DNA from: Rhodobacteraceae bacterium CG17_big_fil_post_rev_8_21_14_2_50_63_15
Lineage (GTDB): Bacteria > Pseudomonadota > Alphaproteobacteria > Rhodobacterales > Rhodobacteraceae
Direction: 5' to 3'
Assembly: GCA_002783205.1 (NCBI GenBank)
Contig: PFEY01000017.1
Span: forward strand, 1-40,534
Length of the DNA stretch: 40,534 nt
Shown piece after piece: positions 1,014 through 25,595 of the stretch (position 1 is its first letter; each line of letters starts with the position of its first letter). The translations under genes were made by a program, and so were the position numbers. The notes under the pieces are model-generated. The model was not told the DNA's origin. It ran no database searches and worked only from the letters and a program-made list of their open reading frames with translations.

Positions 1014-2159
1014 TCAGAGCGCCGCCTCGAAGAGCGCGGTCAGGTTTGCCTCGGTCAGAGTCACCGGATTGCCGCCGCAGCTTGGGTCGATGAGCGCATC
1101 GCGCACCAGATCGGGAATGGCCTCTGCGGTGACACCCAGAGCGCTCAGCCCGCGCGGAATGCTCATGCTGTCGTTGAATGCCTGCACGAAGGTGCAAAAG
1201 CCGTCAAAGCCGCCCTTGATCCCGAGATAGCCCGCCGCCCGGTCGAAGCGGTCGCGGATGGCTGCGGCGTTGAACGCCAGAACAGCGGGCATGCAGACCG
1301 CATTGGTGGTGCCGTGATGGCTGTTGAAATAGGCGCCGACCGGGTGGCTCATGGCATGGATCGCGCCCAGACCCTTCTGAAAGGCGGTGGCCCCCATCGC
1401 GGCGGCACTCATCATCTGGGCGCGCGCCTCGATGTCGGTGCCATCGGCATAGGCGCGCGGCAGATAGTCGATCACCAGCCGCATCCCCTCGAGCGCGATG
1501 CCCTGGGACATCGGGTGGTAATGGGGCGATGAGAACGCCTCGACGCAATGGGCGAAGGCGTCAAGCCCGGTGCCGGCGGTGATGAATTTCGGCATCCCGA
1601 CGGTCAGTTCGGGATCGCAGATCACGACCGTGGGCAGCACCTTGGGATGAAAGATGATCTTTTTCGCATGGGTTTCGGAATTGGTGATCACCGAGGCCCG
1701 CCCGACCTCCGATCCGGTCCCGGCGGTGGTGGGCACCGCGATGATCGGGGCGATCACAGAGGCATCGGCGCGGGTCCACCAATCGCCGATATCCTCGAAA
1801 TCCCACAGCGGGCGGGTCTGGCCGGCCATGAAGGCCACCATCTTGCCCAGATCGAGCCCGGAGCCGCCGCCAAAGGCGATCACCCCGTCATGCCCGCCCG
1901 CGCGGTAGGCGGCGACCCCGGCGGCAAGGTTCTTCTCGTTGGGGTTGGGATCGACCTCGGAGAACATCGCGCGGCCAAGGCTTGCGGCGTCGAGAATATC
2001 GAGCGCCCGCGCCGTCACCGGCAGGCTGGCAAGGCCCTTGTCGGTGACGAGCAGCGGGTGTCTGATCCCGGCCTGTGCGCAGGCGGCGGGCAGTTCGGAA
2101 ATCCGGCCGGTGCCGAATTTGATTGCGGTCGGATAGGACCAGTTGGCGGTCAGGGTCAT
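1014..2159 (-). CDS. Iron-containing alcohol dehydrogenase
   Basis: 381 residues, typical of group III metal-dependent alcohol dehydrogenases. The N-terminal NAD(P)-binding part carries GGGSGLDLGK (about residues 97-106). The C-terminal domain holds the four expected metal ligands: Asp200 and His204 in GLDAFAHCVE, His268, and His282 in HHGTTNA, with the same spacing as lactaldehyde reductase FucO. It would interconvert a primary alcohol and an aldehyde in the cytoplasm. The start at 2159 overlaps the aldehyde dehydrogenase stop (ATGA), which indicates translational coupling; the frame extends to 2264 but that part lies inside the neighbouring gene. As the last gene of the operon it is proposed to oxidise the hydroxyl of a gamma-glutamylated amino alcohol; the substrate is inferred. 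Confidence 0.92.
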   Translation of the reverse strand: MTLTANWSYPTAIKFGTGRISELPAACAQAGIRHPLLVTDKGLASLPVTARALDILDAASLGRAMFSEVDPNPNEKNLAAGVAAYRAGGHDGVIAFGGGSGLDLGKMVAFMAGQTRPLWDFEDIGDWWTRADASVIAPIIAVPTTAGTGSEVGRASVITNSETHAKKIIFHPKVLPTVVICDPELTVGMPKFITAGTGLDAFAHCVEAFSSPHYHPMSQGIALEGMRLVIDYLPRAYADGTDIEARAQMMSAAAMGATAFQKGLGAIHAMSHPVGAYFNSHHGTTNAVCMPAVLAFNAAAIRDRFDRAAGYLGIKGGFDGFCTFVQAFNDSMSIPRGLSALGVTAEAIPDLVRDALIDPSCGGNPVTLTEANLTALFEAAL

Positions 2160-3535
2160 TTCGTCACCTTCTTGAGATGGTAGGATTTGGGGCGGGTGAG
2201 GTTGTGATAGCCGATCACCGACAGGCCGCCGCCGCGCCCGGTGTTCTTGCAACCGGTCCAGCACAGGCCGGGATCGAGGTAATCGGCACGGTTGAGAAAG
2301 ACCGTGCCCGTCTCGATGCGGTCGCCCACCGCCTGCGCGCGGGCGACATCGGGGGTCCAGAGGCTGGCGGTCAGGCCGAATTCGCTGTCGTTCATCAGGG
2401 CAATCGCCTCGTCATCGGAGGCGACCGGCATGATGCCCACGACGGGGCCAAAGCTTTCGTCGCGCATGACGCGCATCTTGTGGCTGACATTGGTGAGGAT
2501 CTGCGGGCTGAGATAGGCCGCGCCGTCATCCTCGGGAAAGGTCGGGATATGGGCGGTCGCGCCCATCGCGAGCGCCTCGGCCACCTGGGCGCGCACTTCT
2601 GCGGCGAAGCGGATATTGGCCATCGGACCAAGCGTGGTTTCGGGATCGAACGGGTTGCCGAGTTTGTAGCCCTGCACCAGCGCCACGGATTTCGCGACAA
2701 AGGCATCGAACAGGCTCTGATGGACATAGATCCGCTCGATCCCGCAGCAGCACTGGCCGGAATTGAACATCGCCCCGTCGATCAGCGTTGCGACCGCCGC
2801 ATCGAGATCGGCATCCTCCATGACATAGCCCGGATCCTTGCCGCCCAGTTCCAGTCCAAGCCCGGTAAAGGTGCCCGCGGCCGCGCGTTCGATGGCACGC
2901 CCGGCCCCCACCGAGCCGGTGAAATTGATGAAATTGAACGCCCCCCCGGCGATCAGCGCCGATGTCGTGTCATGATCGAGAAAGACGTTCTGGAACACGT
3001 CCTGCGGCACGCCAGCGGCCTGAAACGCCCGCGCCATGCGTTCGCCCACCAGAAGCGTCTGGGTGGAATGTTTCAGCAGCACCGTGTTGCCCGCGATGAG
3101 CGCCGGGGCCACCGTGTTGATCGCCGTCATATAGGGGTAATTCCAGGGGGCCACGACAAGGATCACGCCTTGCGGAATGCGCTTTATGTAGCGTTTGAAG
3201 GTTGCGTCCTCGCCCACCGCGATATCGGCAAGCGCGCCTTCGGCAATTTCCGCCATATGGCTGGCGCGTTCGTCAAAGCCTCGGAACTCGCCACCATAGC
3301 GCACCGGGCGGCCCATCATATGTGCCAGTTCCGGCACGATCTCGTCATTCATCGCGCCGACAGCGGCGACACCGGCCATCACCAGGGCGATGCGTTCGGC
3401 CAGGGGGCGCGCGGCCCATGCCGCCTGTGCCGCGCGCGCGCGCGCGGCGACCGCTTGCGCTTCTGCCAGCGACAGAACCGCGCGTTCGGCATAGACCGAC
3501 CCATCGATCGGAGAGATACATTTCAACGTCTGCAT
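2156..3535 (-). CDS. NAD(P)-dependent aldehyde dehydrogenase
   Basis: 459 residues with the full aldehyde dehydrogenase fold: PWNYP (about 130-134) with the oxyanion Asn, FTGSVGAG for cofactor binding, LELGGKDP with the general base Glu229, and FNSGQCCCG with the catalytic cysteine near 263. It oxidises an aldehyde to an acid irreversibly in the cytoplasm. ATG 3535 is preferred over 3559 because AAGGAT sits about 7 nt upstream. It lies between the glutamine-synthetase-like gene and the alcohol dehydrogenase, so the likely reaction is the second oxidation of a masked amino alcohol, for example gamma-glutamyl-aminoacetaldehyde to gamma-glutamylglycine. The family is certain; the substrate is inferred. 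Confidence 0.93.
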   Translation of the reverse strand: MQTLKCISPIDGSVYAERAVLSLAEAQAVAARARAAQAAWAARPLAERIALVMAGVAAVGAMNDEIVPELAHMMGRPVRYGGEFRGFDERASHMAEIAEGALADIAVGEDATFKRYIKRIPQGVILVVAPWNYPYMTAINTVAPALIAGNTVLLKHSTQTLLVGERMARAFQAAGVPQDVFQNVFLDHDTTSALIAGGAFNFINFTGSVGAGRAIERAAAGTFTGLGLELGGKDPGYVMEDADLDAAVATLIDGAMFNSGQCCCGIERIYVHQSLFDAFVAKSVALVQGYKLGNPFDPETTLGPMANIRFAAEVRAQVAEALAMGATAHIPTFPEDDGAAYLSPQILTNVSHKMRVMRDESFGPVVGIMPVASDDEAIALMNDSEFGLTASLWTPDVARAQAVGDRIETGTVFLNRADYLDPGLCWTGCKNTGRGGGLSVIGYHNLTRPKSYHLKKVTK

Positions 3536-3611
3536 GACCACATCCTTGATCACGGGCACGGTGCCCGTCCTTTCATCGTTCCGGAAATACTCAAATCCGA
3601 CCGCGCGGCCC

Positions 3612-4973
3612 TCAGACCCGCTCGAATCCGCGCGCGATCTCGTAATCTGTGACCACGCGGTCGAAATCCTCGATCTCGATCTCGGCGGCGCGGGCGTAAT
3701 GGTCGATCACGCCGTCACCGAACGCCTCGCGCAGAAAGCCCGAGCCCTTGAACACCAGGTAGGCATCGCGCAGCGTCTGCGGGATGCGGCCGCTGTCGCC
3801 TGCATAGGCATCGCCCGTCGCGGGCGGGGCCAGCTCGAGCTTGTCCTTTATGCCCTTGATCCCGGCGGCCAGCATCGCGGCCATGGCGAGATAGGGGTTG
3901 AGGTCGGAGCCGCCGATGCGGCATTCGACGCGCACCGCCTTGGAGCCCGCGCCGCAGAGCCGGAACCCGGCGGTGCGGTTGTCGACCGACCAGATCGTGC
4001 GAGTGGGGGCGAAGGTGCCGCGCTGGAATCGCTTGTAGCTGTTGATATAGGGGGCCAGGAAATAGGTGTAATCGGGGGCGTATTTCAGCAGGCCCGCCAT
4101 GTAATGCCGCATCAGCGTGTTCATCCCGAGACCGTCCTCGGGATCGAAGAATGCCGGTTTGCCATCGCGCCAGAGCGATTGATGCACATGGCTCGAGGAG
4201 CCCACCCGTTTGTGGTGCCATTTTGGCAGAAAGCTTGCCGCGTGCCCCTGTTGCCACGCGATCTCCTTGATCGCGTGCTTGGCGATGGTGTGGTAATCGG
4301 CGGTATCGAGCGCGGGGGCGTAGCGGATGTTGAGCTCTTCCTGCCCGACCTCGGCCTCGCCCTTGGTGTTTTCCACCGGAATGCCCGCCGCATGAAGGTG
4401 ATTGCGGATCGGACGCATCACATGCTCTTCCTTGGTGGTCTGGAAGATGTTGTAATCCTCGTTATAGCCCGAGATCGGCGTCAGGTCGCGATAGCCCGAT
4501 TTGCGGATCTCGTCATAGCTCTTTTCGAACAGGAAAAACTCCAGTTCCGTCGCCATCATCGCGTCAAATCCCATCGCATCGAGCCGCGCCAGTTGCGATT
4601 TGAGCATGGTGCGGGGGTCATGCGGCACTGGCGCGTGGCTGCCGTGGTCGCGCACGTCGCAGAGCACCATCACCGTGCCGTCGAGCCAGGGCATCGGGCG
4701 CAGGGTCGAGAGATCCGGCGCCATCACATAATCGCCATAGCCGCGTGACCAGCTTGTCGCGGCGAACCCCTCGGGGGTGCTCATTTCGAGATCGGTGGCC
4801 AAGAGGTAGTTGCAGCAATGGGTTTCTTCCCAGGCGCTTGCGATGAAATGGCTTGCCTGAAAGCGTTTGCCCATCAGACGCCCCTGCATGTCGACAAGGC
4901 AGACCAGAACGGTATCCACCGTGCCGGCGGCGACGGCGGCCTTGAGGGCGTCAAAAGTCAGAGTGGCTGGCAT
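3612..4973 (-). CDS. Glutamine-synthetase-like gamma-glutamyl-amine/amide ligase
   Basis: 453 residues. Catalytic-domain motifs of the GS superfamily are clear: ATELEFFLF (metal and glutamate site), GEAEVGQEELNIRY, GSSSHVHQSLW and WSVDNRTAGFRLCG leading to RVECRIGGSDLNPYLAMAAMLAAG. The N-terminal beta-grasp domain starts at LVCLVDMQGRLMGKR. It looks like the PuuA/IpuC/GlnA4 branch, whose members ligate glutamate to amines (putrescine, isopropylamine, ethanolamine) using ATP, rather than housekeeping GlnA: the adenylylation-site region is not recognisable and the operon is catabolic. The gene follows dctP after a 65-bp gap carrying a strong hairpin. A gamma-glutamylmethylamide synthetase is an alternative, but the companion alcohol dehydrogenase favours an amino alcohol. 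Confidence 0.85.
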   Translation of the reverse strand: MPATLTFDALKAAVAAGTVDTVLVCLVDMQGRLMGKRFQASHFIASAWEETHCCNYLLATDLEMSTPEGFAATSWSRGYGDYVMAPDLSTLRPMPWLDGTVMVLCDVRDHGSHAPVPHDPRTMLKSQLARLDAMGFDAMMATELEFFLFEKSYDEIRKSGYRDLTPISGYNEDYNIFQTTKEEHVMRPIRNHLHAAGIPVENTKGEAEVGQEELNIRYAPALDTADYHTIAKHAIKEIAWQQGHAASFLPKWHHKRVGSSSHVHQSLWRDGKPAFFDPEDGLGMNTLMRHYMAGLLKYAPDYTYFLAPYINSYKRFQRGTFAPTRTIWSVDNRTAGFRLCGAGSKAVRVECRIGGSDLNPYLAMAAMLAAGIKGIKDKLELAPPATGDAYAGDSGRIPQTLRDAYLVFKGSGFLREAFGDGVIDHYARAAEIEIEDFDRVVTDYEIARGFERV

Positions 4974-4999
4974 GTCTCAATTCCTGTCGGAGGCAACGT

Positions 5000-5028
5000 C
5001 CCGGCGCGCAGGTCTGCCGCGCGCCGGG
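5000..5028 (-). terminator. GC-rich intercistronic hairpin after dctP
   Basis: Perfect 10-bp stem CCCGGCGCGC / GCGCGCCGGG with a 9-nt loop (GGCAGACCT on the minus strand), 10 bp past the dctP stop and before the ligase gene. There is no T-tract. Similar hairpins downstream of solute-binding-protein cistrons are known to attenuate downstream genes or protect the upstream mRNA; that role is inferred here. It shares GCGGCAGAC with the hairpin after ugpB. Confidence 0.6.
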
Positions 5029-5038
5029 GCCGATTGGG

Positions 5039-6073
5039 TTAACTGTAACGATAAGGCCGTCCGGCCTTGGCCATGTCGGCATTGTATTTCTTGAAGATCT
5101 CGACGACCTTGGCCTTGGTCGGGCTTTCGGCCGCGATCTCGTCCCAGAATTTCAGAGCGGCATCCTCGACCGTCTGCCATTCGGCATCGGGGATCGTTGT
5201 CAGCTGCATCTTGGTGCCGTCGACGCGCAAGCTTGCCTCGCCACCCCAATACCAATGCTGGCGGTAGTAATGCGACTGATCGCAGCAGACCCGGACGAGG
5301 GTCTGAAGGTCTTCGGGCACTTCGTTCCAGCGGTCCATGTTGGCGAAGAAATGCCCGATCCAGGCGCCCGAGATGTTGTTGGTCAGGAAGTAGTTGGTCA
5401 CGTCCGCCCAGCCCACCGTGTAATCCTCGGTGATGCCCGACCAGGCGATGCCATCAAGCTCTCCGGTCTGGACCGCAACCTCGATGTCTTCCCAGGGCAG
5501 CGTAACCGGCACCACGCCGAACTGGGTCAGGAACCGGCCGGCGGTGGGGAAGGTAAAGACCCGTTTGCCTTCCAGATCCTTGAGGCTGTTGATCGGCTCC
5601 TTGGTGGCGAAATGGCAGGGATCCCAAGAGCCCGCGCTGATGTGTTTCACGCCGACCTTGGAATATTCCTCGTCCCAGATCTCATTCAGGCCATACTGGT
5701 TGAAGAGCACCGGCACATCGAGGCTGTAGCGGCTGGCGAAGGGGAAATAGCCGCCGAACACCGTCACCTCGGTGGGGCTTGCCATGCTGTCATCGTCGGA
5801 CTGCACGGCGTCGATCGTGCCGCGCTGCATGGCGCGGAACAATTCGCCGGTGGGCACCAGCTGATCGGCGAAGAACAGTTCGATCTGCATCCGGTCGCCG
5901 GCGATCTTGTTGAACATGTCCACGGCGGGCTTGATCACATGCTCGGCCAGAGCTGGCCCGGCATAGGTCTGCATCCGCCATTTGATCGTGGATTGCGCCA
6001 GCGCCGGGGTGGCCAAGGGTGCGGCGAGCGCGCCCGCCCCGGCAGCGGTCAGAAACTTGCGTCTTGTGGTCAT
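5039..6073 (-). CDS. dctP: TRAP transporter solute-binding protein (DctP-type, Tat-exported)
   Basis: 344 residues. The N-terminus MTTRRKFLTAAGAGALAAP is a twin-arginine signal with likely cleavage after ALA near residue 26. The mature part begins TIKWRMQTYAGPALAEHV, typical of periplasmic DctP proteins, and contains the family's central KRVFTFPTAGRFLTQFGVVPVTLP-type region (about residues 168-192), where an arginine in this family normally binds a substrate carboxylate; here the aligned region reads FPTAGRFL. A GGAGAG ribosome-binding site precedes the ATG. It works with DctQ/DctM encoded just upstream to bind and import a small polar solute, powered by the ion gradient. Aromatic-rich C-terminal residues (HYYRQHWYWGG) hint at binding of a cationic or amphipathic ligand, which is speculative. 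Confidence 0.92.
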   Translation of the reverse strand: MTTRRKFLTAAGAGALAAPLATPALAQSTIKWRMQTYAGPALAEHVIKPAVDMFNKIAGDRMQIELFFADQLVPTGELFRAMQRGTIDAVQSDDDSMASPTEVTVFGGYFPFASRYSLDVPVLFNQYGLNEIWDEEYSKVGVKHISAGSWDPCHFATKEPINSLKDLEGKRVFTFPTAGRFLTQFGVVPVTLPWEDIEVAVQTGELDGIAWSGITEDYTVGWADVTNYFLTNNISGAWIGHFFANMDRWNEVPEDLQTLVRVCCDQSHYYRQHWYWGGEASLRVDGTKMQLTTIPDAEWQTVEDAALKFWDEIAAESPTKAKVVEIFKKYNADMAKAGRPYRYS

Positions 6074-6134
6074 CGTGTTCTCTCCTTGTTTGCGATATCC
6101 GGCCCCTGGACGGGGCTCTTTTTGGGGTTATCCG

Positions 6135-7457
6135 TTATTTTCCATAAACGTAGTTCGGCAGCCAGAGCGCGATCTCCGGGAAAATCATGACCAATGCGAG
6201 GGCCAATGCCATCACGCCCACGAACGGCACGATCGAGCGGTAGATGTCGCGCAGGCCGATCTCGGGCGGGGCCATGGCCCGCATGAGAAACAGGTTATAC
6301 CCAAAGGGCGGCGTCATATAGGCAATTTGCGTGGTGATCGTATAGAGCACGCCATACCAGATCAGATCGAATCCCAGGGCGCCCACCAGCGGCACATAGA
6401 GCGGCGCCACGATGACCAGCATCGCGGTATCATCGAGAAAGGTGCCCATCACGATGAAGGAGAGCTGCATCAGGATCAGGATGGTCCAGGGCCCCAGATG
6501 CAACTGATCGGTAAAGAGAGACTCGATCGCCTTGACCGCACCCAGCCCGTCGAACACCGCACCAAAGCCAAGGGCGGCCAGAATGATCCACATGAACATG
6601 CACGAAATCGCCAGCGTGTTCCGCACACTTGTCTCGAACACCAGTTTGGTCATCCGCCCCTTGAGCACCGCTGCGGCAAAGGCGGCCATGGCACCGATGG
6701 CCGAACTTTCGACGAGGCTGGTCCAACCCTTGACGAAAGGGATCATCATCGTGGCGAAGATCACCAGCGGCAGCAATCCCGCCCGCAGCAGGCGCAGCTT
6801 TTCGATGATCGGAACGTTGCGCTCGTCCTCCGGCAACACCGGACCAAGTTCCGGCTGAATCCGGCAGCGGACATAGATGTAGATCACGAACATTGTGGCC
6901 ATCATCAGCCCCGGCAGCACGCCCGCCAGCCATAACTGCCCGACGGGTTGCCGCGCGATCATCGCATAGAGCACCAGCACCACCGAGGGCGGCACGAGGA
7001 TGCCGAGGGACGATCCGGCCTGAATGACGCCCGTCACCATGATCTTGTCATAGCCGCGCCGCAGCAGTTCCGGCAGCGCGATGGTGGCCCCGATCGCCAT
7101 GCCGGCCACGCTGAGGCCGTTCATCGCCGAGATCAGCACCATGAGGCCGATGGTGCCGATCGCGAGGCCGCCCTGCACCGGCCCCATCCAGACATGGAAC
7201 ATCTTGTAGAGGTCATCGGCGATCTTCGATTCCGACAGAACGTAGCCCATGAAGATGAACATCGGCAGCGTCAGCAGCGGATACCATTTCATCAGTTTCA
7301 TCGCACTGGCAAAGGGCACGTCCACCCCGCCCACGCCCCACAACAGCAAAGCCGCCGCCGCGCCGACAAATCCGATGGCGCCAAAGACTCGCTGGCCGGT
7401 CATGAGCATGAGCATCATGGTGGAGAACATCAGCAGGGCGATCATGTCATAGGACAT
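6135..7457 (-). CDS. dctM: TRAP transporter large permease (DctM)
   Basis: 440 residues, highly hydrophobic, with about 12 membrane helices in two halves. It begins MSYDMIALLMFSTMMLMLMTGQRVFGAIG and carries the family's MNGLSVAGMAIGATIALPELLRRGY and PPSVVLVLYAMIA segments. It forms the translocation channel of a tripartite ATP-independent periplasmic transporter in the inner membrane. The ATG overlaps the dctQ stop by one base (TGATG), so the two permease genes are coupled. A 61-bp gap separates it from dctP. The frame extends upstream to 7949 but that part is the shadow of dctQ. Confidence 0.93.
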   Translation of the reverse strand: MSYDMIALLMFSTMMLMLMTGQRVFGAIGFVGAAAALLLWGVGGVDVPFASAMKLMKWYPLLTLPMFIFMGYVLSESKIADDLYKMFHVWMGPVQGGLAIGTIGLMVLISAMNGLSVAGMAIGATIALPELLRRGYDKIMVTGVIQAGSSLGILVPPSVVLVLYAMIARQPVGQLWLAGVLPGLMMATMFVIYIYVRCRIQPELGPVLPEDERNVPIIEKLRLLRAGLLPLVIFATMMIPFVKGWTSLVESSAIGAMAAFAAAVLKGRMTKLVFETSVRNTLAISCMFMWIILAALGFGAVFDGLGAVKAIESLFTDQLHLGPWTILILMQLSFIVMGTFLDDTAMLVIVAPLYVPLVGALGFDLIWYGVLYTITTQIAYMTPPFGYNLFLMRAMAPPEIGLRDIYRSIVPFVGVMALALALVMIFPEIALWLPNYVYGK

Positions 7458-8053
7458 CAGAGCGCCTCTCCCTTGATCCGGCCGATATCGCGGAGAAGCT
7501 CCGCCAGCGTCTGCAACAGCATCAGGAACACGCCCAGACAGAGAATCGTCTTGACCGGCCAGATCAGGGGGCGCCACGCGGTCGAGGAGCGCTCCATGAA
7601 GCCGAGCATTTCTCCTGCTGCCGTCGGACCCTCGGTGATCAGCGTCCTGATGATCTGTCCGAACCAGTGGAACGGCTCTGTCCCGAAATAGCCCAGAGAA
7701 TAGGCGGTGGAACCCACCGCGCCATAAAGCAGGACGCCAAGATAAAACATCAGGAACAGCACGCTGAAGGCATCGACCCAGGCCTTGGTGCGATCCGTCC
7801 AGCCGCCGTAAAAGAGGTCCATCCGCACATTGCTGCCCAGCTGGATGGAATAGGGACCGCCGAGCACGTAATAGGCGACCATCACGAATTGCGCGGTCTC
7901 CAGCGTCCAGAGCGCGGGGGTGAACAGGGTCTTGGAGATCGACGACCACAAGAGCACGCCGATGAGCACGAAGATAAGATACATCGTCAGCCGCCCGATG
8001 AAACGGTTCATCGCGTCGATGGCGCGGATATAGGCAAGGATGGGCTTAGGCAT
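7457..8053 (-). CDS. dctQ: TRAP transporter small permease (DctQ)
   Basis: 198 residues with four hydrophobic segments, starting around residues 18-38 (LTMYLIFVLIGVLLWSSISK). The TRAP small-subunit pattern is present, including YVLGGPYSIQLGSNVRMDLFYGGW. It stabilises DctM and docks the binding protein. It overlaps the amidohydrolase gene upstream by 8 bp and dctM by 1 bp, so the whole block is one transcript. Slightly longer than average DctQ, as in TRAP systems for polar metabolites; the substrate cannot be read from this subunit. Confidence 0.9.
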   Translation of the reverse strand: MPKPILAYIRAIDAMNRFIGRLTMYLIFVLIGVLLWSSISKTLFTPALWTLETAQFVMVAYYVLGGPYSIQLGSNVRMDLFYGGWTDRTKAWVDAFSVLFLMFYLGVLLYGAVGSTAYSLGYFGTEPFHWFGQIIRTLITEGPTAAGEMLGFMERSSTAWRPLIWPVKTILCLGVFLMLLQTLAELLRDIGRIKGEAL

Positions 8054-8837
8054 GGGTGCCGCCGCCGGTCGTCTGTTCGAGGGCGTCGAGTGCCGGACGC
8101 AGCAGCGTCAGCACCTCCTCGGCCAGGTGCGCCTCTGCTGAGGCGCCGTGCAAAAGATCGTTGCGGATCTCGATCATCACATTGGGCAGGCCCTGCGCGA
8201 GGCCGTGGATCTTGAGGGAATGGGTCACTCCGTCCTCGGGACCGTAGGGATCATTGCGGCGGATCACGCGATGCGGGAGCCGGTGGGCTTCGGCCAGCAT
8301 CGCATCCGCGAGCCGCGTGTCGCTGTCATGCAGGATGCCGATCTCGCAGCTCCGGGCCGTGCCGAACCAGACCGGGGTGAAACTGTGGATCGTGATCAGC
8401 GCGGTGGCCCGACCGGCCGCCTTGCGGGCCGCGATCACCTGGCCGACGGCGGCGCAGAAGGGCGCATAGACCGCCGCCGCCCGCGCGGCGCGTTCCGCAG
8501 CGCTCAGGCCATGATTGCCAGGCACCTCGATCACCTCGGTGCGCTCGGGCATGGCGCTTGCCGCGTCTGGTGGGCGGTTGCAGTCATAGACGAGGCGCGA
8601 GAGCCTTGCCGCCACCAGCGGCGCGTGCAGGGCGCGCGCCAGATGCAACGCGACAGCCCGCGCGCCGGGATCCCAGGCGGCATGGCTCTGGCGGGCAGAG
8701 GCGCTCAGCCCAAGGCCATGATAGCGCGCGGGGATGTGATGGGACGCATGTTCGCACAAGATCAGCGCCGACCCTTCGACCGGTGCGCCGATCACCTCGA
8801 CAACGTCAGGCTCATCTGTGTCCTGATGATGTGGCAT
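8046..8837 (-). CDS. N-formylglutamate amidohydrolase family protein
   Basis: 263 residues from ATG 8837, which has GAAAGGGGGG a few bases upstream; an upstream GTG at 8873 lacks such a site. Family marks: LCEHASHHIP near residue 27-36 (metal-binding), SRLVYDCNRPP, ITIHSFTPVWFG and VMIEIRNDLL near the C-terminus. Known members (HutG type) are zinc hydrolases that cleave N-formylglutamate to formate and glutamate. There are no histidine-degradation genes here; instead it heads an operon with a transporter, a gamma-glutamyl ligase and two dehydrogenases. I infer that it may hydrolyse a gamma-glutamyl amide, the step otherwise done by PuuD-type amidases, which are missing from the operon. Plain deformylation remains possible. 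Confidence 0.88.
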   Translation of the reverse strand: MPHHQDTDEPDVVEVIGAPVEGSALILCEHASHHIPARYHGLGLSASARQSHAAWDPGARAVALHLARALHAPLVAARLSRLVYDCNRPPDAASAMPERTEVIEVPGNHGLSAAERAARAAAVYAPFCAAVGQVIAARKAAGRATALITIHSFTPVWFGTARSCEIGILHDSDTRLADAMLAEAHRLPHRVIRRNDPYGPEDGVTHSLKIHGLAQGLPNVMIEIRNDLLHGASAEAHLAEEVLTLLRPALDALEQTTGGGTHA

Positions 8838-8863
8838 GCGCCCCCCTTTCGGCGTTTGGAAAA

Positions 8864-8892
8864 ATCTTTTCACATGACAAAAATTGTGTCAA
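8864..8892 (-). promoter_or_regulatory. Candidate promoter of the amidohydrolase-TRAP-ligase operon
   Basis: On the minus strand a perfect TTGACA -35 box (8892-8887) is followed after 17 bp by AAAGAT (8869-8864), 27 bp before the chosen start. The -35 box overlaps the right arm of the palindrome at 8875-8891, as expected for a repressed promoter. The -10 match is moderate. Confidence 0.45.
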
Positions 8893-8977: not shown

Positions 8978-9844
8978 GTGAGCAAACCCCCGACCACCGT
9001 GCGCGAGGTGATCCGCTCGCGATACAGCAGCCTCACCCAAGCCGAGCGCAAGTTCGCGCAGGCGCTCCTCGACAGCTATCCGGCGGCGGGGCTGGCCTCG
9101 ATCACGATCGTGGCGGCGAATGCGGGCGTCTCGACGCCCACCGTGGCGCGGATGGTGCAGAAACTGGGTTTCAAGGGCTATCCGCAGTTTCATCAGGCGC
9201 TGCTCCGCGAGCTGGAGGCCAAGGTCTCCGGCCCCACACAACGCCGCGCCAATTGGGCGTCAGAGGCGCCGGCCACCCATTCGCTCAACCGATTTGCCAA
9301 GGCGGTGACGCAGAATATCGAACAGACCTTCGCCAATATCGACAGTGCGCGGTTTGACGCGGCCGCGCGCCTTTTGGCCGATACCGAGGGGCGGCTCTAT
9401 CTGGTCGGCGGACGCATCACGCGGGCGCTGGCGGATTACGCCTTTACTCATTTCCAAGCGGTGCGCGAACGGGTCACGCATATGAGCGCGTCCTCGGCCA
9501 CTTGGCCGCATTACCTGCTCGACATGGTGGAGGGGGACACTCTTTTGATGTTCGACATTCGCCGTTACGAGACCAGTCTCATGGGTCTGGCCGAGATCGC
9601 CACGGCGCGCGGCGTGCGGGTGGTTCTCATCACGGATCAATGGATGAGCCCGATTGCCGATCTGGCGACGCATAGTTTCAACTGCTGGGTCGAGATCCCC
9701 TCGGCCTGGGATTCCAATGTCTCGACGCTGATGCTGCTCGAGGCGCTGATCGCGGCGGTGCAGGAAGAACGCTGGCCCGCGCCGCGCGACCGTTACGAGC
9801 GGCTGGACGAACTGTTCAATGCGGCACGGCTGTTTCAGAGATAA
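8978..9844 (+). CDS. MurR/RpiR family transcriptional regulator
   Basis: 288 residues from a GTG start (AGGAT 7-11 nt upstream); the frame is open far upstream but the conserved region begins just after this GTG. The N-terminal HTH_6 domain (about 5-80) contains LTQAERKFAQALLDSYPAAG and AANAGVSTPTVARMVQKLGF. The SIS-like C-terminal domain (about 125-255) contains LYLVGGRITRALADYAFTHF and LLMFDIRRYETSLMGLAEIA. Canonical SIS sugar-phosphate binders have Ser/Thr-rich loops (GxGxS and SxSGxT); here they read GGRIT and DIRRYE, so the ligand is probably not a sugar phosphate. Divergent from the catabolic operon, which it most likely controls. Its 3' end overlaps bhcR by 29 bp. Confidence 0.9.
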   Translation: MSKPPTTVREVIRSRYSSLTQAERKFAQALLDSYPAAGLASITIVAANAGVSTPTVARMVQKLGFKGYPQFHQALLRELEAKVSGPTQRRANWASEAPATHSLNRFAKAVTQNIEQTFANIDSARFDAAARLLADTEGRLYLVGGRITRALADYAFTHFQAVRERVTHMSASSATWPHYLLDMVEGDTLLMFDIRRYETSLMGLAEIATARGVRVVLITDQWMSPIADLATHSFNCWVEIPSAWDSNVSTLMLLEALIAAVQEERWPAPRDRYERLDELFNAARLFQR

Positions 9845-10676
9845 CGTGCCCGCCGCCAAGGGTGCCGTGCTGCCCGGCGATCAGATGGGTGATCTGAGCG
9901 GCGGCCTGCGCCACGGCAGAGCCTAAATCCGCGATCTGCGCATCCGGGAACCGGCTGCTGGGACCGGAGATCGACACGCCGGCGCAGGGCTCTCCGCGGT
10001 CGTTGAAGATCGCTGCGCCGATGCAGGACATGCCGTCATACCGCTCGTTGCGGTCAAACGACCAGCCGCGCGCGCGGGTGTCGGCGAGATCGTCAAAGAG
10101 CGCGCGGGGCGTGACGTGGGTGTGATCGGTAAAGCCCTTGAGGCCCGCCCCCTTGAGCAAGGCGATCAGCCGGTCCTCGGGCAGGGCCGCGAGGATCGCC
10201 TTGCCAGTGCCGGAAGCATGCATCGGCGTGCGCGAACCGGGTGGAAAGAAGGCGCGGATCGGATTGCCGGTCTCAACCTGACCGATAAAGACCACCTCTG
10301 CCCCGTCCGGCACCGCGAGATTGGCGGTCTCTCCCGTCCGTTCCATCAGCCGTCGCATGACCGGGCGGCCGGCATCGGCCAGATTGGTGCGTTTGAGATA
10401 GGCCACACCGGTGCGATAGGCCTCGATCCCGATCGTCCAGTCCTGACGCTCCTCGTCAAAGCGGACAAAATCGCGGTTCTGGAGGGTGGTCAGGATGCGG
10501 TGCGTGGTGGCGGTGGGAATCCCAAGGCTGAGCGACAGATCGCTGAGATTGATCCCTTCCTGACGGGCGACGGCGGTCAGCACGCCGAGGGCGCGGTCGA
10601 GCGCCTGCATGGTTCCGGCGCTGCTGTCGTTGAATTGCGACTTGGGGCGGCCGCGCGGCCGTTTGAGTTGCGTCAC
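9816..10676 (-). CDS. bhcR: IclR family regulator of the beta-hydroxyaspartate cycle (BhcR)
   Basis: 286 residues from GTG 10676, with AGAGGGA upstream. A basic, AT-hook-like N-terminus (RPRGRPKS) is followed by an IclR winged helix (about 20-80; LSDLSLSLGIPTATTHRILTTL) and the effector domain (about 90-265), with HASGTGKAILAALPEDRL and ERYDGMSCIGAAIFNDRGEP typical of the family. In Paracoccus denitrificans the IclR protein next to bhcABCD (BhcR) controls the cycle in response to glyoxylate; identical gene order supports the same name here. The start choice is uncertain because the frame extends to 10766 through an AT-rich non-conserved leader. Confidence 0.88.
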   Translation of the reverse strand: MTQLKRPRGRPKSQFNDSSAGTMQALDRALGVLTAVARQEGINLSDLSLSLGIPTATTHRILTTLQNRDFVRFDEERQDWTIGIEAYRTGVAYLKRTNLADAGRPVMRRLMERTGETANLAVPDGAEVVFIGQVETGNPIRAFFPPGSRTPMHASGTGKAILAALPEDRLIALLKGAGLKGFTDHTHVTPRALFDDLADTRARGWSFDRNERYDGMSCIGAAIFNDRGEPCAGVSISGPSSRFPDAQIADLGSAVAQAAAQITHLIAGQHGTLGGGHVISETAVPH

Positions 10677-10796
10677 GGCGACGATTCCCTCTTGATGGCT
10701 GCTTTTAATAAATAAAAAATATTTCCATAATGTCAATTGCGCGCAGTTTGAAAAATAAAAAGACAAATGAAAACAGAATATTGAATATTATTTTCA

Positions 10797-10816
10797 TGAA
10801 ATGGAAAAACATTTCA
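10797..10816. promoter_or_regulatory. Palindrome in the bhcR-bhcA intergenic region, candidate BhcR operator
   Basis: TGAAATG-N6-CATTTCA, 7-bp perfect arms, overlapping a second 10-bp palindrome TTTCATGAAA at 10792-10801. It lies in a 203-bp AT-rich divergent region (10677-10879), 63 bp upstream of bhcA. IclR regulators bind palindromes of about this size. Several AT-rich stretches around it could supply -10 boxes, but I could not single out a promoter. Confidence 0.45.
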
Positions 10817-10879
10817 AGAAAATTGCAATGGGGATCGGATTGCGGCATGGTCCGGCTGCATCAGAGGAGGATGACCGCC

Positions 10880-12073
10880 ATGTCAGACCAGAACCCGCTT
10901 TTCATTCCGGGCCCGACCAATATTCCCGACCGGCTGCGCCGCGCCATGCAGGTGCAGACGCAGGATCACCGCTCGCCGGCCTTCGTCAACACGCTGACGC
11001 CGGTTCTGGAGGGATGCAAGACCGTGTTCGGCACCGCAGCGGGCCGGATCATCACCTTTCCCGCCTCTGGCACCGGCGGCTGGGAGGCGGCGATCAGCAA
11101 CACGCTCAGCCCCGGCGACAAGGTTGTGGTGGCGCGTTACGGCATGTTCAGCCATCGCTGGATCGACATGTGCCAGCGGCATGGGCTGGACGTTCAGATC
11201 ATCGAATGCCCCTGGGGTAGCGGCGCGCCCGCTGACCGTTTCGAGGAGGCGCTGACCGCTGACAAGGACCATGTTATCAAGGCTGTTCTCGTGACGCATA
11301 ACGAGACCGCCACCGGGGTGCGCTCGGACATCGCCGCGGTTCGCCGCGCGATGACCACCGCCAAACACCCCGCGCTCCTGATGGTCGATTGTGTCAGTTC
11401 GCTCGCGTCGATGCCCTTCGAGATGGATGCATGGGGCGTCGATATCGCCGTGTCTGGCTCGCAAAAGGGCTTCATGCTCAACACCGGGATGGCCATTCTG
11501 GCGGTCAGTGCCAAGGCGCTGGCGATGATGGAAACCGCAAAACTGCCGCGCACCTTCTTTGATTTCAGTGACATGATGGGCGCCAATGCCAAGGGCGGGT
11601 TCCCCTATACCCCGCCGCTGCAACTGATCTACGGCATGGCCGAGAGCCTGAACATGCTGTTCGAGGAAGGGTTGGACAATGTCTATGCCCGTCACACGCG
11701 AATCGCGGAGGGTGTGCGTCGTGCCGTTGCCGCCTGGGGGTTGAAGCTGGTGGCGCAATCGCCGGATCTCTACTCCGACACGGTGAGCGCGGTCTTGGTG
11801 CCCGAGGGATTTGACAGCAACCGGCTGACCGACCGTGTCTTTCACACCTATGGCATGAGTTTTGGCATCGGGCTTGGTGAAATGAACGGTCGTGCCTTTC
11901 GCATCGGCCATCTTGGCAGCCTGACCGAGGCGATGATGCTGGCGGGTCTGGCGACGCTCGAAATGGCGATGGCCGATCTGAATTACCCCGTTAAACTGGG
12001 CTTTGGCGTGATCGCGGCGCAGGAATACTATCGCGCCACCGCCAAGTCCGTTCTGGCCGAAAAAGCCGCATAA
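10880..12073 (+). CDS. bhcA: Aspartate-glyoxylate aminotransferase (BhcA)
   Basis: 397 residues of the class V aminotransferase fold (fold type I PLP). The N-terminus PLFIPGPTNIPDRLRRAM is typical of the alanine/serine-glyoxylate aminotransferase group; Asp170 (LLMVDCVSS) and the PLP lysine Lys196 (SGSQKGF) are present. In the beta-hydroxyaspartate cycle BhcA moves the amino group of aspartate to glyoxylate, giving oxaloacetate and glycine. ATG 10880 is chosen because AGGAGG lies 9 nt upstream; the ATG at 10871 directly abuts that site. First gene of bhcABCD; a serine-glyoxylate aminotransferase call would be the generic alternative, but the neighbours fix the role. Confidence 0.93.
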   Translation: MSDQNPLFIPGPTNIPDRLRRAMQVQTQDHRSPAFVNTLTPVLEGCKTVFGTAAGRIITFPASGTGGWEAAISNTLSPGDKVVVARYGMFSHRWIDMCQRHGLDVQIIECPWGSGAPADRFEEALTADKDHVIKAVLVTHNETATGVRSDIAAVRRAMTTAKHPALLMVDCVSSLASMPFEMDAWGVDIAVSGSQKGFMLNTGMAILAVSAKALAMMETAKLPRTFFDFSDMMGANAKGGFPYTPPLQLIYGMAESLNMLFEEGLDNVYARHTRIAEGVRRAVAAWGLKLVAQSPDLYSDTVSAVLVPEGFDSNRLTDRVFHTYGMSFGIGLGEMNGRAFRIGHLGSLTEAMMLAGLATLEMAMADLNYPVKLGFGVIAAQEYYRATAKSVLAEKAA

Positions 12074-12084
12074 AAGGAAGCAAC

Positions 12085-13053
12085 ATGCTGGATCAACGTA
12101 GCGCAAGCGATCTGACGATCGACGACATGCGCGCCGCACATGAGCGCATCAAACCCTATATCCACCGCACGCCGGTGCTGACCTCGAGCTATCTCGATGA
12201 CCTGACCGGGGCGGAGCTGTTCTTCAAATGCGAGAATTTCCAGAAGGCCGGCGCGTTCAAGGTGCGTGGGGCTTCGAATGCCGTGTTTGGACTGAGTGAC
12301 GAGATGGCCAAGAAGGGTGTTGCGACACATTCGAGCGGCAATCACGCCTTGAGCCTCAGCTATGCCGCCGGGCGGCGCGGAATTCCGTGCAACGTGGTCA
12401 TGCCGCGCACCGCGCCGCAGGCCAAAAAGGACGCGGTGCGCGGCTATGGCGGGATCATCACCGAATGCGAGCCGTCAACCAGCAGCCGCGAAGAGGTTTT
12501 TGCCCGCATCGAGGCCGAGACGGGTGCCAATTTCGTGCATCCCTACAATGACTTGCGCGTCATCGCCGGGCAGGCCACCTGTTCGGCGGAACTGATCGAA
12601 CAGGTGGACGGTCTGAATGCCGTGATCGCCCCCATCGGCGGCGGCGGCATGGTATCGGGCACGTGTCTCACGCTGTCGAACCTCGCACCTCATGTCAAAA
12701 TCTACGCGGCAGAACCGGAACAGGCCGATGATGCCTATCGCAGCTTCAAGGCCGGGCATATCATCGCCGACGACGCGCCCGATACCGTGGCCGATGGTCT
12801 CAAGGTGCCGCTCAAGGAAAACACCTGGCATTTCGTAAGCCACAATGTGACCGACATCCTGACCGCCAGCGAAGAGGAAATCATCGAGGCGATGAAGCTC
12901 ACCTGGAAGCGGATGAAGATCGTGATCGAGGCCAGTTGCGCCGTGCCGCTGGCCACCATCCTGAAAAACCCCGAGGTGTTCGCCGGCAAGCGCGTCGGCG
13001 TCATCATCACGGGTGGCAATGTCGATCTCGACACGCTTCCATGGATCAAATGA
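12085..13053 (+). CDS. bhcB: Erythro-beta-hydroxyaspartate dehydratase (BhcB)
   Basis: 322 residues of fold type II PLP enzymes, the serine racemase/threonine dehydratase group. The PLP lysine is Lys59 in KAGAFKVRGASNA; the phosphate-binding loop is IGGGGMVSG (about 182-190). Metal-dependent hydroxyaspartate dehydratases share this short single-domain layout without a regulatory ACT domain. BhcB removes water from beta-hydroxyaspartate to give iminosuccinate. It starts 11 bp after bhcA with AAGGAAG upstream. Followed by a 68-bp gap carrying a strong hairpin before bhcC. Confidence 0.92.
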   Translation: MLDQRSASDLTIDDMRAAHERIKPYIHRTPVLTSSYLDDLTGAELFFKCENFQKAGAFKVRGASNAVFGLSDEMAKKGVATHSSGNHALSLSYAAGRRGIPCNVVMPRTAPQAKKDAVRGYGGIITECEPSTSSREEVFARIEAETGANFVHPYNDLRVIAGQATCSAELIEQVDGLNAVIAPIGGGGMVSGTCLTLSNLAPHVKIYAAEPEQADDAYRSFKAGHIIADDAPDTVADGLKVPLKENTWHFVSHNVTDILTASEEEIIEAMKLTWKRMKIVIEASCAVPLATILKNPEVFAGKRVGVIITGGNVDLDTLPWIK

Positions 13054-13065
13054 CCAATTCCATGG

Positions 13066-13086
13066 GGCGCGCGATCCTCGCGCGCC
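13066..13086 (+). terminator. Intercistronic hairpin between bhcB and bhcC
   Basis: Perfect 9-bp stem GGCGCGCGA / TCGCGCGCC with a TCC loop, 12 bp after the bhcB stop. There is no T-tract and the operon continues, so it is more likely an mRNA processing or stability element than a full terminator. Confidence 0.5.
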
Positions 13087-13121
13087 GTAACTGAACAACC
13101 CGCATCCTGGGAGGAACTCCG

Positions 13122-14285
13122 ATGAAAGACACGATCAATCTCGACGCCTTTGAGGTCGGCTATGACATTCCCGCCCTGCCGGGCATGGCCGAGGCCGACA
13201 TCCAGACCCCCTGCCTCATCCTCGATCTCGACGCGCTGGAGCGCAACATCAGGAAGATGGGAGATTGGGCCTGCGCGCATGGCGTGCGTCACCGCGTCCA
13301 CGGCAAGATGCACAAGTCCGTCGATGTGGCCAAGCTGCAAGAAAGCCTCGGCGGCGCCTGCGGCGTGTGCTGCCAGAAGGTCAGCGAGGCAGAGGTCTTT
13401 GCCCGGGGCGGCATCAAGGATGTGCTGGTCTCGAACCAGGTCCGCGATCCCGCCAAGATCGACCGTCTGGCGCGGATGCCGAAACTCGGCGCGCGCACGA
13501 TCTGCTGTGTTGACGATCTGGCCAATGTGGCGGATCTCTCGGCGGCGGCACAAAAGCATGGCACGCAGATCGAGTGTCTGGTGGAAATCGACTGTGGTGC
13601 CGGGCGCTGCGGGGTGACGACGACGCCTGCCGTTGTGGAAATTGCCAAAGCCATCGACGCCGCGCCGGGCCTCAAGTTCTCAGGTATCCAGGCCTATCAG
13701 GGCGCGATGCAGCACATGGACAAATACGAGGACCGCAAGGCCAAGATCGACCTCGCGGTGGCACAGGTCAAGGATGCCGTTGATACGCTCAAGGCCGAAG
13801 GGCTGGCATGTGACATCGTTGGCGGTGGCGGCACTGGCAGCTACTATTTCGAGGGCAACTCGGGCGTCTATAACGAGCTTCAGTGCGGCTCTTATGCCTT
13901 CATGGATGCCGATTACGGGCGCATTCTCGACCAGGACGGCAAGCGGATTGACCAGGGCGAATGGGAAAACGCGCTCTTCATCCTGACGTCGGTGATGAGC
14001 CACGCCAAGGCCGACAAGGCCATCGTTGATGCCGGCCTCAAGGCGCAGTCGGTCGACTCTGGCCTGCCGGTTGTCTTTGGCCGCACCGATGTGAAATATG
14101 TGAAATGCTCCGACGAGCATGGCGTGATCGAGGATCTGCAAGGCGTGCTCAAGGTCAACGAGAAGTTGCGCCTCGTGCCGGGCCACTGCGATCCGACCTG
14201 CAACGTGCATGACTGGTATGTCGGTGTGCGGAACGGCAAGGTCGAATCCGTGTGGCCGGTCTCGGCGCGCGGCCGGGCCTATTAA
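13122..14285 (+). CDS. bhcC: Beta-hydroxyaspartate aldolase (BhcC)
   Basis: 387 residues, D-threonine aldolase/alanine racemase-like fold type III PLP enzyme. The Schiff-base lysine is expected at Lys62 in RVHGKMHKS, matching the R-H-x-K-x-HK pattern of D-threonine aldolases. The divalent-metal site near the C-terminus is visible as PGHCDPTCNVHDW. BhcC condenses glycine with glyoxylate to (2R,3S)-beta-hydroxyaspartate, the carbon-carbon bond-forming step of the cycle. GGGAGGAA precedes the ATG. Third gene of the operon; the bhcD start lies only 8 bp downstream. Confidence 0.93.
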   Translation: MKDTINLDAFEVGYDIPALPGMAEADIQTPCLILDLDALERNIRKMGDWACAHGVRHRVHGKMHKSVDVAKLQESLGGACGVCCQKVSEAEVFARGGIKDVLVSNQVRDPAKIDRLARMPKLGARTICCVDDLANVADLSAAAQKHGTQIECLVEIDCGAGRCGVTTTPAVVEIAKAIDAAPGLKFSGIQAYQGAMQHMDKYEDRKAKIDLAVAQVKDAVDTLKAEGLACDIVGGGGTGSYYFEGNSGVYNELQCGSYAFMDADYGRILDQDGKRIDQGEWENALFILTSVMSHAKADKAIVDAGLKAQSVDSGLPVVFGRTDVKYVKCSDEHGVIEDLQGVLKVNEKLRLVPGHCDPTCNVHDWYVGVRNGKVESVWPVSARGRAY

Positions 14286-14293
14286 GGGCTGGA

Positions 14294-15298
14294 ATGATGG
14301 AGACCCACAAGGACGTGTCCGCCGATGGTTTCGTGATCGTTGGCGAGGAAATCTGTGAGAGGATCATCAGCCGGGCAGATGCCTTTGGCGCGGTCGAAGC
14401 GGTGTTTGCCGCCATGGCGCGGGGCGATGCCTATAACTTTCCGGTGGTCCGCGAGGCAATCGGCCATGCCGATGCGCTTTATGGCTTCAAGGGCGGGTTT
14501 GATCGCTCTGGCCTCTCGCTCGGGGTCAAGGCCGGGGGCTACTGGCCGGGCAACATGGCCCGTGGGCTGACCAACCATCAGTCCACCGTGTTTCTCTTTG
14601 ATCCCGATAGCGGGCGTCTCTCGGCGCTGGTGGGCGGTAATTACCTGACTGCCATCCGCACGGCGGCCTCCTCCTCGGTCTCCATCGCGCATCTGGCGCG
14701 CAAGGATGCGCGCGTTCTGGGCATGGTCGGCGCGGGCCACCAATCCACCTTTCAGTTGCGCGCCGCCGTCGAGCAGCGTGCCTTTGACAAGGTTGTGGCG
14801 TGGAACCCGCATCCCGACATGCTGCCGCGTCTGGGGGCGGTTGTCGGGGAGCTGGGGCTGGAATTCGAGGCAGTTACTCAGCAAGAGCTGGGCGCGCAGG
14901 CGGATGTGGTCATCACGATCACAAGCGCCTTTGAGCCGCTGATGATGGCCGACTGGATCAAGCCCGGCACGCATATCGCCTGCATGGGCACCGACACCAA
15001 GGGCAAGCAAGAGGTCGATCCGGCGCTCTTTGCCCGCGCGACCGTCTTTGCCGATGAGATTGCACAGTCGATTACCATCGGTGAGGCACAGCACGCCGTG
15101 GCGCAGGGCCTGATTTCCGAGGGCGACATCACCGCCATCGGGGCGGTCATCAATGGCAGCCACGCAGGGCGCACATCGGCACAAGAGATCACCCTCTTTG
15201 ATGGAACCGGCGTGGGGCTTCAGGATCTTGCCGTGGCCTCTGTGGCGGCAAAACTGGCACGTGAGCAAGGGCTGGTTACACCCGTCGTCCTCGGCTGA
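14294..15298 (+). CDS. bhcD: Iminosuccinate reductase (BhcD)
   Basis: 334 residues of the ornithine cyclodeaminase/mu-crystallin family: KAGGYWPGN and NYLTAIRTAA for substrate binding, and a Rossmann segment VLGMVGAGHQS (about 150-160). BhcD reduces iminosuccinate with NADH to L-aspartate, which regenerates the amino donor for BhcA and closes the cycle. ATG 14294 is chosen (AAGG 6 nt upstream); ATG 14297 is an immediate alternative, and the frame extends back to 14252 inside bhcC. By sequence alone it could be annotated as ornithine cyclodeaminase or alanine dehydrogenase; context decides. Confidence 0.92.
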   Translation: MMETHKDVSADGFVIVGEEICERIISRADAFGAVEAVFAAMARGDAYNFPVVREAIGHADALYGFKGGFDRSGLSLGVKAGGYWPGNMARGLTNHQSTVFLFDPDSGRLSALVGGNYLTAIRTAASSSVSIAHLARKDARVLGMVGAGHQSTFQLRAAVEQRAFDKVVAWNPHPDMLPRLGAVVGELGLEFEAVTQQELGAQADVVITITSAFEPLMMADWIKPGTHIACMGTDTKGKQEVDPALFARATVFADEIAQSITIGEAQHAVAQGLISEGDITAIGAVINGSHAGRTSAQEITLFDGTGVGLQDLAVASVAAKLAREQGLVTPVVLG

Positions 15299-15328
15299 GG
15301 ACCATTATGACAGTTTGGTGATTTTTGC

Positions 15329-15356
15329 GCAGGCGACCGCTGATGCGGTTGCCTGT
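15329..15356 (+). terminator. Hairpin between bhcD and ugpB, probable terminator
   Basis: A 12-bp stem with two wobble pairs (GCAGGCGACCGC / GCGGTTGCCTGT) and a TGAT loop, 30 bp after bhcD. It is followed by TCGCGCTTTAAG rather than a T-run. It marks the likely border between the bhc and ugp transcription units; the remaining 79 bp before ugpB would hold the ugp promoter, which I could not identify. Confidence 0.5.
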
Positions 15357-15435
15357 TCGCGCTTTAAGTGTAGCGTATGCCCGCAGGAAGGCGACAGTCG
15401 GCAATGACTGGCTGCGATTCACAGGGAGAAGTTAC

Positions 15436-16749: not shown

Positions 16750-16761
16750 TCTGAGGCACGA

Positions 16762-16786
16762 GGGCCGGGCGGCAGACGCCCGGTCC
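16762..16786 (+). terminator. GC-rich intercistronic hairpin after ugpB
   Basis: Stem of 10 bp including one wobble (core CCGGGCG / CGCCCGG) with loop GCAGA, 12 bp after the ugpB stop and 17 bp before ugpA. It is placed as expected for differential expression of an abundant binding protein over its permeases. It shares GCGGCAGAC with the hairpin after dctP. Confidence 0.6.
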
Positions 16787-16803
16787 CGCCGCCGTGAAAC
16801 CGG

Positions 16804-17685
16804 ATGGAAAAACGTGTCACCTTCAGGGGTTGGTTCCTGCCGCTCTGCCTGATCGCGCCGCAGATCGTGATCTCTGCGGTGTTCTTCTTTTTCCCGGCCG
16901 GTCAGGCGGTGTGGCAGTCGTTATTCATTCCCGACCCGTTCGGCCTGTCATCGCAATTTGTCGGACTGGGCAACTTCAAGTATCTGTTGGGCGATCCCTA
17001 TTATCGTGCCTCGTTTGTCACTACGGCGATCTTTTCCACGCTGGTGACGCTGGCGTCGATGATTCCGGCGCTGTTTCTGGCGGTGCTGGCCGACCGGCTG
17101 GTGAAATCGGCAGGGGTCTATCGAACGTTGCTGATCTGGCCCTACGCGGTGGCCCCGGCGGTGGCGGGGGTTCTGTGGATGTTCATGTTCAACACGCGAG
17201 TGGGCGTGGTGGCGTGGTATCTGGGGCAATTGGGCTATGACTGGAACCATGTGCTTGATGGGACAGAGGCGATGGGGCTGGTCGTCGTGGCGTCAAGTTG
17301 GGGGCGGATCAGTTACAACTTCCTGTTTTTCTTTGCCGCGCTTCAGGCTGTGCCCCGCTCGATCATCGAGGCCGCCGCGATCGACGGCGCACGTTTCTGG
17401 CGACGGTTCTTTACCATCGTGTTGCCGCTTCTGTCGCCGACAACGTTCTTTCTTCTGGTCGTGAACATCGTCTATGCCTTTTTCGAGACCTTCGGGGTCA
17501 TTCACACGATCACCGCCGGGGGGCCGCAACAGGCCACCACGATCCTTGTCTACAAGGTGTTCTCGGACGGGTTCGTGGGGCAGGATCTGGGATCGTCCGC
17601 GGCGCAGTCGGTCATTCTGCTGGGGGTGGTCGGCCTGCTGACGGTGCTGCAATTCAAGTATATCGAGAAGCGGGTGCATTACTGA
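16804..17685 (+). CDS. ugpA: Glycerol-3-phosphate ABC transporter permease UgpA
   Basis: 293 residues with six hydrophobic helices, starting around residues 11-33 ([19 protein letters not shown]). The cytoplasmic EAA loop that contacts the ATPase is clear: [24 protein letters not shown]. It is the inner-membrane partner of UgpE. The stop overlaps the ugpE start by one base (TGATG). Gene order and the true UgpB upstream support the assignment over a generic sugar permease. Confidence 0.92.
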
Positions 17686-18542: not shown

Positions 18543-18547
18543 GTAAC

Positions 18548-22291: not shown

Positions 22292-22293
22292 GC

Positions 22294-25523: not shown

Positions 25524-25595
25524 GCCCGTCTCATCCCCCGTTTTTTTACCTGACTGCCTGCCTCGGTTTCTTGCCACGCACCGGACGCAATGTCA

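Follow-up and report, generated by a model that had tools for sequence, protein, structure and literature searches.

In the Puu putrescine pathway of E. coli, the amine is masked by glutamate, oxidized by PuuB and then hydrolysed by PuuD. γ-Glutamylation chemistry has also been proposed for the GlnA4 pathway of S. coelicolor (PMC6529630, PMC9397018), where GlnA4 is a demonstrated γ-glutamylethanolamide synthetase whose model has a Phe at the flap (PMC6529630); the same two papers term the ethanolamine route of C. salexigens predicted or proposed. From that organism, Csal_0678 binds ethanolamine and lacks the Arg usual in the binding proteins of tripartite ATP-independent periplasmic (TRAP) transporters (PMC4646407). 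The closest described system is the eto operon of Phaeobacter sp. MED193 (MED193_10021-10056), which encodes RpiR, GGAH, EtoV, EtoW, EtoX, an ethanolamine γ-glutamylase, an aldehyde dehydrogenase and an alcohol dehydrogenase (PMC10132767). This paper reports that EtoX binds ethanolamine with a Kd of 7.9 ± 1.9 µM and leaves four analogues unbound, that five of the eight operon proteins stand in the proteomic table of those raised on phosphorylethanolamine, and that etoX is expressed across ocean sites and depths. We analysed a contig of Rhodobacteraceae bacterium CG17_big_fil_post_rev_8_21_14_2_50_63_15 (PFEY01000017.1, 40,534 nt, hereafter the window) and found on its minus strand, at 1014-8837, with a divergent RpiR gene at 8978-9844, a member of this published operon type: its gene content and order equal the published list (RpiR, GGAH, EtoV, EtoW, EtoX, ETAGA, GAADDH, GETADH). 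We consider it very likely that the operon directs the RpiR-controlled uptake of ethanolamine and its catabolism by γ-glutamylation.

Gene content and predicted pathway

All seven minus-strand open reading frames of the operon are intact, and each could be assigned to a family by profile matches. The first is GGAH, a predicted γ-glutamylglycine amidohydrolase of the N-formylglutamate amidohydrolase family (8046-8837; 263 aa; PF05013 FGase, 139.7 bits); the only solved relative that we found is 2odf (Atu2144, E 4.2e-82), and the gene holds the same position in the published MED193 operon. It is followed, in the MED193 order, by the small TRAP permease EtoV (DctQ; 7457-8053; 198 aa; PF04290, 50.0 bits), the large permease EtoW (DctM; 6135-7457, ATG at 7457; PF06808, 213.9 bits) and the solute-binding protein EtoX (DctP; 5039-6073; 344 aa), whose predicted ligand is ethanolamine. 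The last three genes encode ETAGA, a predicted ethanolamine γ-glutamylase resembling glutamine synthetase (GS; 3612-4973; 453 aa; PF00120 Gln-synt_C, 318.4 bits), GAADDH, a predicted γ-glutamylacetaldehyde-amide dehydrogenase of the aldehyde dehydrogenase (ALDH) family (2156-3535; 459 aa; PF00171, 369.5 bits; GQCC motif at residue 260), and GETADH, a predicted γ-glutamylethanolamide dehydrogenase of the iron alcohol dehydrogenase (Fe-ADH) family (1014-2159; 381 aa; PF00465 and PF25137). GGAH and EtoV overlap by 8 bases and GAADDH and GETADH by 4, the EtoV stop and EtoW start have one base in common, and the remaining intergenic gaps are 61, 65 and 76 bases.

In the proposed pathway, periplasmic ethanolamine would be captured by EtoX and imported via EtoVW, and ETAGA would spend ATP to couple it to glutamate through the γ-carboxyl of the latter. 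GETADH would then convert the alcohol to an aldehyde, GAADDH the aldehyde to γ-glutamylglycine, and GGAH would cleave the latter to glycine and glutamate, so that glutamate would be recycled. The initial annotation, made from the letters alone, had read the locus well but missed the publication: its seven coupled genes (amidohydrolase, TRAP importer, GS-like ligase, ALDH and iron ADH) all hold, and its γ-glutamylation route for an amino alcohol matches the MED193 operon with its EtoX binding and proteomics (PMC10132767). It overlooked the N-formylglutamate family of the amidohydrolase, the RpiR gene as part of the unit, and glycine as the predicted product formed beside glutamate. Gene content, order and families are established from the sequence at hand, as are the loss of GS residues, the kinship of EtoX and the pairing of regulator and operator described below. 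Ethanolamine binding by EtoX and induction on phosphorylethanolamine were shown elsewhere, in relatives; every enzyme step and the substrate in the source organism are inferred.

The arrangement is conserved. A ligase-based scan of public genomes found at least 539 relatives, of which the best 80 loci were kept with flanks of up to 10 kb; among the matches listed, the closest ligases are from Roseovarius (88-89% identical). Since all eight genes, RpiR included, stand in identical order and strand in 56 of these 80 closest loci, the arrangement is not due to chance. The other 24 lack at least one of the eight genes, and many of them are short contigs; EtoX is present in 69 loci and without a match in 11. 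We also surveyed a family sample of 149 genomes, one per genus (thresholds: EtoX E <= 1e-60, ETAGA E <= 1e-150, RpiR E <= 1e-40). EtoX occurs in 87 and ETAGA in 92 of them, counts that agree with ethanolamine from membrane lipids being a widespread marine nutrient. Both are found in 81 genomes and lie within 8 kb of each other in 68 of these, a lower bound because the assemblies are fragmented.

Nothing contradicts the proposed pathway, and two points qualify it. GETADH, GAADDH or GGAH is not nearby in the operons of a few relatives: in full 21 kb loci, at the threshold of this study, GAADDH is missing from L026, GETADH from L042 and L046, and RpiR and GGAH from L057. In addition, PMC10132767 measures EtoX binding, and the parts of it available to us do not describe an assay of the four enzymes.

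Some relatives show other layouts. Loci L037 and L055 have RpiR-GGAH-ETAGA-GAADDH-GETADH with no TRAP genes in between, and a pair of genes for a histidine kinase and a sigma-54 regulator lies upstream of the L055 set. One genome of the family sample (G100) has two ETAGA copies (C4:5869 and C78:7224), 77 and 73% identical to that of the window, with an EtoX match beside the second only.

The Gln-synt_C domain of ETAGA and its matches to the GlnA model TIGR00653 (233.5 bits) and the γ-glutamylputrescine synthetase model NF045547 (195.6 bits) would suit a glutamine synthetase or γ-glutamylpolyamine synthetase, in an operon for ammonium or polyamines. We hold this to be extremely improbable, as both scores are far under the respective cut-offs of 429.15 and 650, GS residues are missing, and 4uab is the nearest solved relative of EtoX, the binding protein of the importer. 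ETAGA also falls under the cut-off of the GS III model. The GS flap Glu is replaced by Phe (Phe321 in the window) in 80 of 80 full-length ligases, that is, the window and 79 relatives after the incomplete L035 was dropped. The FDGSS motif with the ammonium-site Asp is found in the genome's own GlnA and not in ETAGA; the draft genome contains eight Gln-synt_C matches in all. ETAGA matches PDB 5dm3 (E 8.8e-241), which, like 4uab, comes from Chromohalobacter salexigens.

The Eut route by ethanolamine ammonia-lyase was considered and rejected, since searches that recovered the E. coli positive control gave 0 EutB and 0 bacterial microcompartment (BMC) matches in the draft genome, an absence that is not proof because the assembly is 94.5% complete. 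The initial annotation had noted the lack of both kinds of genes, and this extends to the whole draft.

EtoX and its two types

EtoX of the window matches PDB 4uab over residues 26-343 (E 2.5e-195), and 4uab is the ethanolamine-binding Csal_0678. The two are close relatives, and in EtoX too the usual carboxylate-binding Arg of related TRAP proteins is absent, its position being taken by Phe173. The MED193 counterpart binds ethanolamine (PMC10132767). Both facts speak against the possibility that 3-aminopropanol, alaninol or a similar small amino alcohol is the main substrate of the same chemistry. The enzyme families could accept further amino alcohols, provided that the hydroxyl is primary, and no NCBIfam cut-off was reached by GETADH (14 models matched) or GAADDH (none of the 25 displayed of 44 matched), which leaves some room for such a substrate; a secondary alcohol such as 1-amino-2-propanol cannot yield the aldehyde that the ALDH would need. 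We therefore regard a main substrate other than ethanolamine as quite unlikely. Of the candidates in the initial annotation, ethanolamine stands as the most likely and propanolamine is less so.

Comparison of 70 full-length EtoX sequences (69 loci and the window) separated two deeply split types: 50 belong to type A, as does that of the window, and 20 to type B. Type A sequences share 73.6% identity or more with one another and type B sequences 77.1% or more, versus 60.6-69.7% between the types, and 35 alignment columns distinguish the two, including F173Y and W194Y. Aligned to the TRAP proteins 4yzz and 4yic, which have the Arg, a type B EtoX has Tyr at the equivalent of Phe173. When typed by identity to the window, the family sample contains 68 A and 19 B among its 87 EtoX-bearing genomes, and a sample of the source organism's own genus 23 A and 26 B among 49.

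Quick trees under a simple model were built for 58 complete operons including that of the window; 12 of the 70 were left out because a partner gene was missing or incomplete. Mapped onto these trees, the A/B type needs one change for EtoX, five for EtoW and nine for the ligase, and a single type-B clade is rejected by the ligase data (p-AU 2.8e-32) and by the EtoW data (p-AU 4.3e-05). Type nevertheless tracks descent in part, since shuffled type labels need 11-17 changes. From these sequence comparisons we conclude that the EtoX types (5039-6073 in the window; relatives L009-L088) have moved between related operons.

The exchanged block appears to be larger than EtoX. In the clearest pair, L012 and L011, RpiR, GGAH and the three enzyme genes that follow EtoX are 86-89% identical at the nucleotide level, and the value drops to 77% for EtoV, 81% for EtoW and 71% for EtoX; exchange of EtoX alone was accordingly rejected, as EtoV and EtoW also diverge more than the flanks. 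In L045 and L053, RpiR and GGAH diverge even more than the transporter genes, so the block there exceeds the transporter.

The RpiR regulator and a candidate operator

The divergent gene at 8978-9844 (plus strand) encodes an RpiR-family regulator of 288 aa with HTH_6 and SIS domains, and in 61 of the 87 EtoX-bearing family genomes an RpiR gene is found no more than 6 kb from EtoX. We compared 69 RpiR-GGAH intergenic regions, the window included. A candidate -35 element of the eto promoter, TTGACA (8887-8892, minus strand), is found in 64 of them. The candidate RpiR operator is TGAAAAGATTTTTCCA (8857-8872, minus strand), a near-palindrome overlapping the expected -10. Its general form, TGGAAA-NN-TTTTTCCA with up to three mismatches, occurs in 41 of the 69 regions, versus a mean of 0.15 and a maximum of 1 in 20 mononucleotide shuffles. 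Both elements are present together in 38 regions, and the palindrome begins 20-21 bases after the TTGACA start in 34 of these and not in the other 4.

Presence of the palindrome follows the type of regulator: it is found in 40 of the 42 regions with an RpiR at or above 60% identity to that of the window, and in 1 of the 27 below this value. Several of ten examples of the latter group show another dyad at the equivalent place, e.g., TGTAGTGAT-NN-TTACA. This is not an independent test, because the motif was derived from the very regions in which it was counted and the loci share ancestry, but its pairing with the type of regulator played no part in motif discovery. This pairing supports RpiR as the cognate regulator of the eto operon, with its putative operator at 8857-8872. 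An inverted repeat of the form TGACA-N5..9-TGTCA was also tried as operator and dropped, being present in 1 of the 69 regions.

Neighbouring genes, phosphatase-bearing relatives and known systems

Next to the operon and its regulator lie genes of the β-hydroxyaspartate cycle: bhcR (9816-10766, minus strand; 354 bits against an NCBIfam cut-off of 350) and bhcABCD (10730-15298, plus strand; all above their cut-offs). Beyond them stand ugp genes (15325-19597). Further along, the minus strand at 20762-25577 encodes subunits of an Mrp-type Na+/H+ antiporter (Proton_antipo_M, MnhB, MbhD and MbhE domains).

The adjacency is suggestive because glycine, the expected product of the eto pathway, is a substrate of the β-hydroxyaspartate cycle. 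It would permit an extension that does not exclude the main pathway, namely that the operon is wired to the cycle and ethanolamine serves as a carbon source, with glycine and glyoxylate converted to oxaloacetate; we consider this possible but doubtful. Among the 36 genomes of the genus sample with both eto and bhc, the source genome counted, the two are spaced by about 8 kb in five and lie within 30 kb in six. In the 80 loci, adjacency is seen in L009-L012 and L082, the last having bhc genes that diverge further (BhcR 47%, BhcA 59%), and co-occurrence in the genus sample (36 of 49 genomes with eto versus 3 of 11 others) gives p 0.011, with relatedness uncontrolled. The family sample does not bear this out: only 2 of 50 genomes with both, including the source genome, have them within 30 kb, and there is no significant co-occurrence (50 of 87 versus 29 of 62, p 0.24), so that a general eto-bhc linkage fails there. 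Glycine cleavage is also possible, given 17 GCV_T-domain matches in the genome. At the level of listed titles, a literature search found no paper linking eto with bhc. Taken jointly with the EtoX types, these genes allow one further tentative reading, which we think improbable: that the importer module, with Phe173 or Tyr and differing nearby residues, was swapped repeatedly for ligand range or affinity, and that coupling to bhc turns phospholipid ethanolamine into cell carbon.

Five of the 80 loci (L040:3770-14000, L048:6756-13980, L067, L068 and L080) have the Eto enzymes without TRAP genes and with a gene for an IMPase-family phosphatase. This gene lies directly before GGAH in L040 and L080 and one gene further away in L048, L067 and L068, where a Na/Pi symporter-family gene stands in between. 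For the phosphatases checked, the nearest model is HisN, with scores under its cut-off. Besides a DeoR regulator, L040 has an ABC importer resembling those for 2-aminoethylphosphonate, with scores under the equivalog cut-offs. We speculate that such loci may take up intact phosphoethanolamine and dephosphorylate it in the cytosol; uptake of the intact headgroup is left open in the Discussion of PMC10132767, the only paper that turned up in a literature search.

The operator linked to RpiR type, the two exchanged EtoX types, the bhc adjacency in some relatives and the phosphatase-bearing sets elsewhere go beyond the published account as given in the accessible parts of the papers. The regulator/operator pairing, the EtoX types and the phosphatase-bearing sets, the last being candidates for the intact-headgroup uptake raised in PMC10132767, are potentially important additions.

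Compared with E. coli Puu, the window shares the masking of an amine by glutamate followed by oxidation and hydrolysis, but Fe-ADH and an FGase-family hydrolase stand in place of PuuB and PuuD; the initial annotation had noticed the first replacement. The S. coelicolor GlnA4 pathway (SCO1611-1615) resembles it in its proposed chemistry, a formylglutamate amidohydrolase family member and the flap Phe of the ligase model (PMC6529630). It differs in phylum and regulator (EpuRI), and a TRAP importer is not named in the available parts of that paper. The C. salexigens γ-glutamylation pathway (Csal_0678 region) shares relatives of the TRAP protein (4uab) and of the GS-like ligase (5dm3). Closest is the MED193 eto operon, compared via its published gene list, which agrees in all eight genes, their order and their families and has RpiR at the GGAH end; in the window, bhc and ugp genes adjoin the operon.

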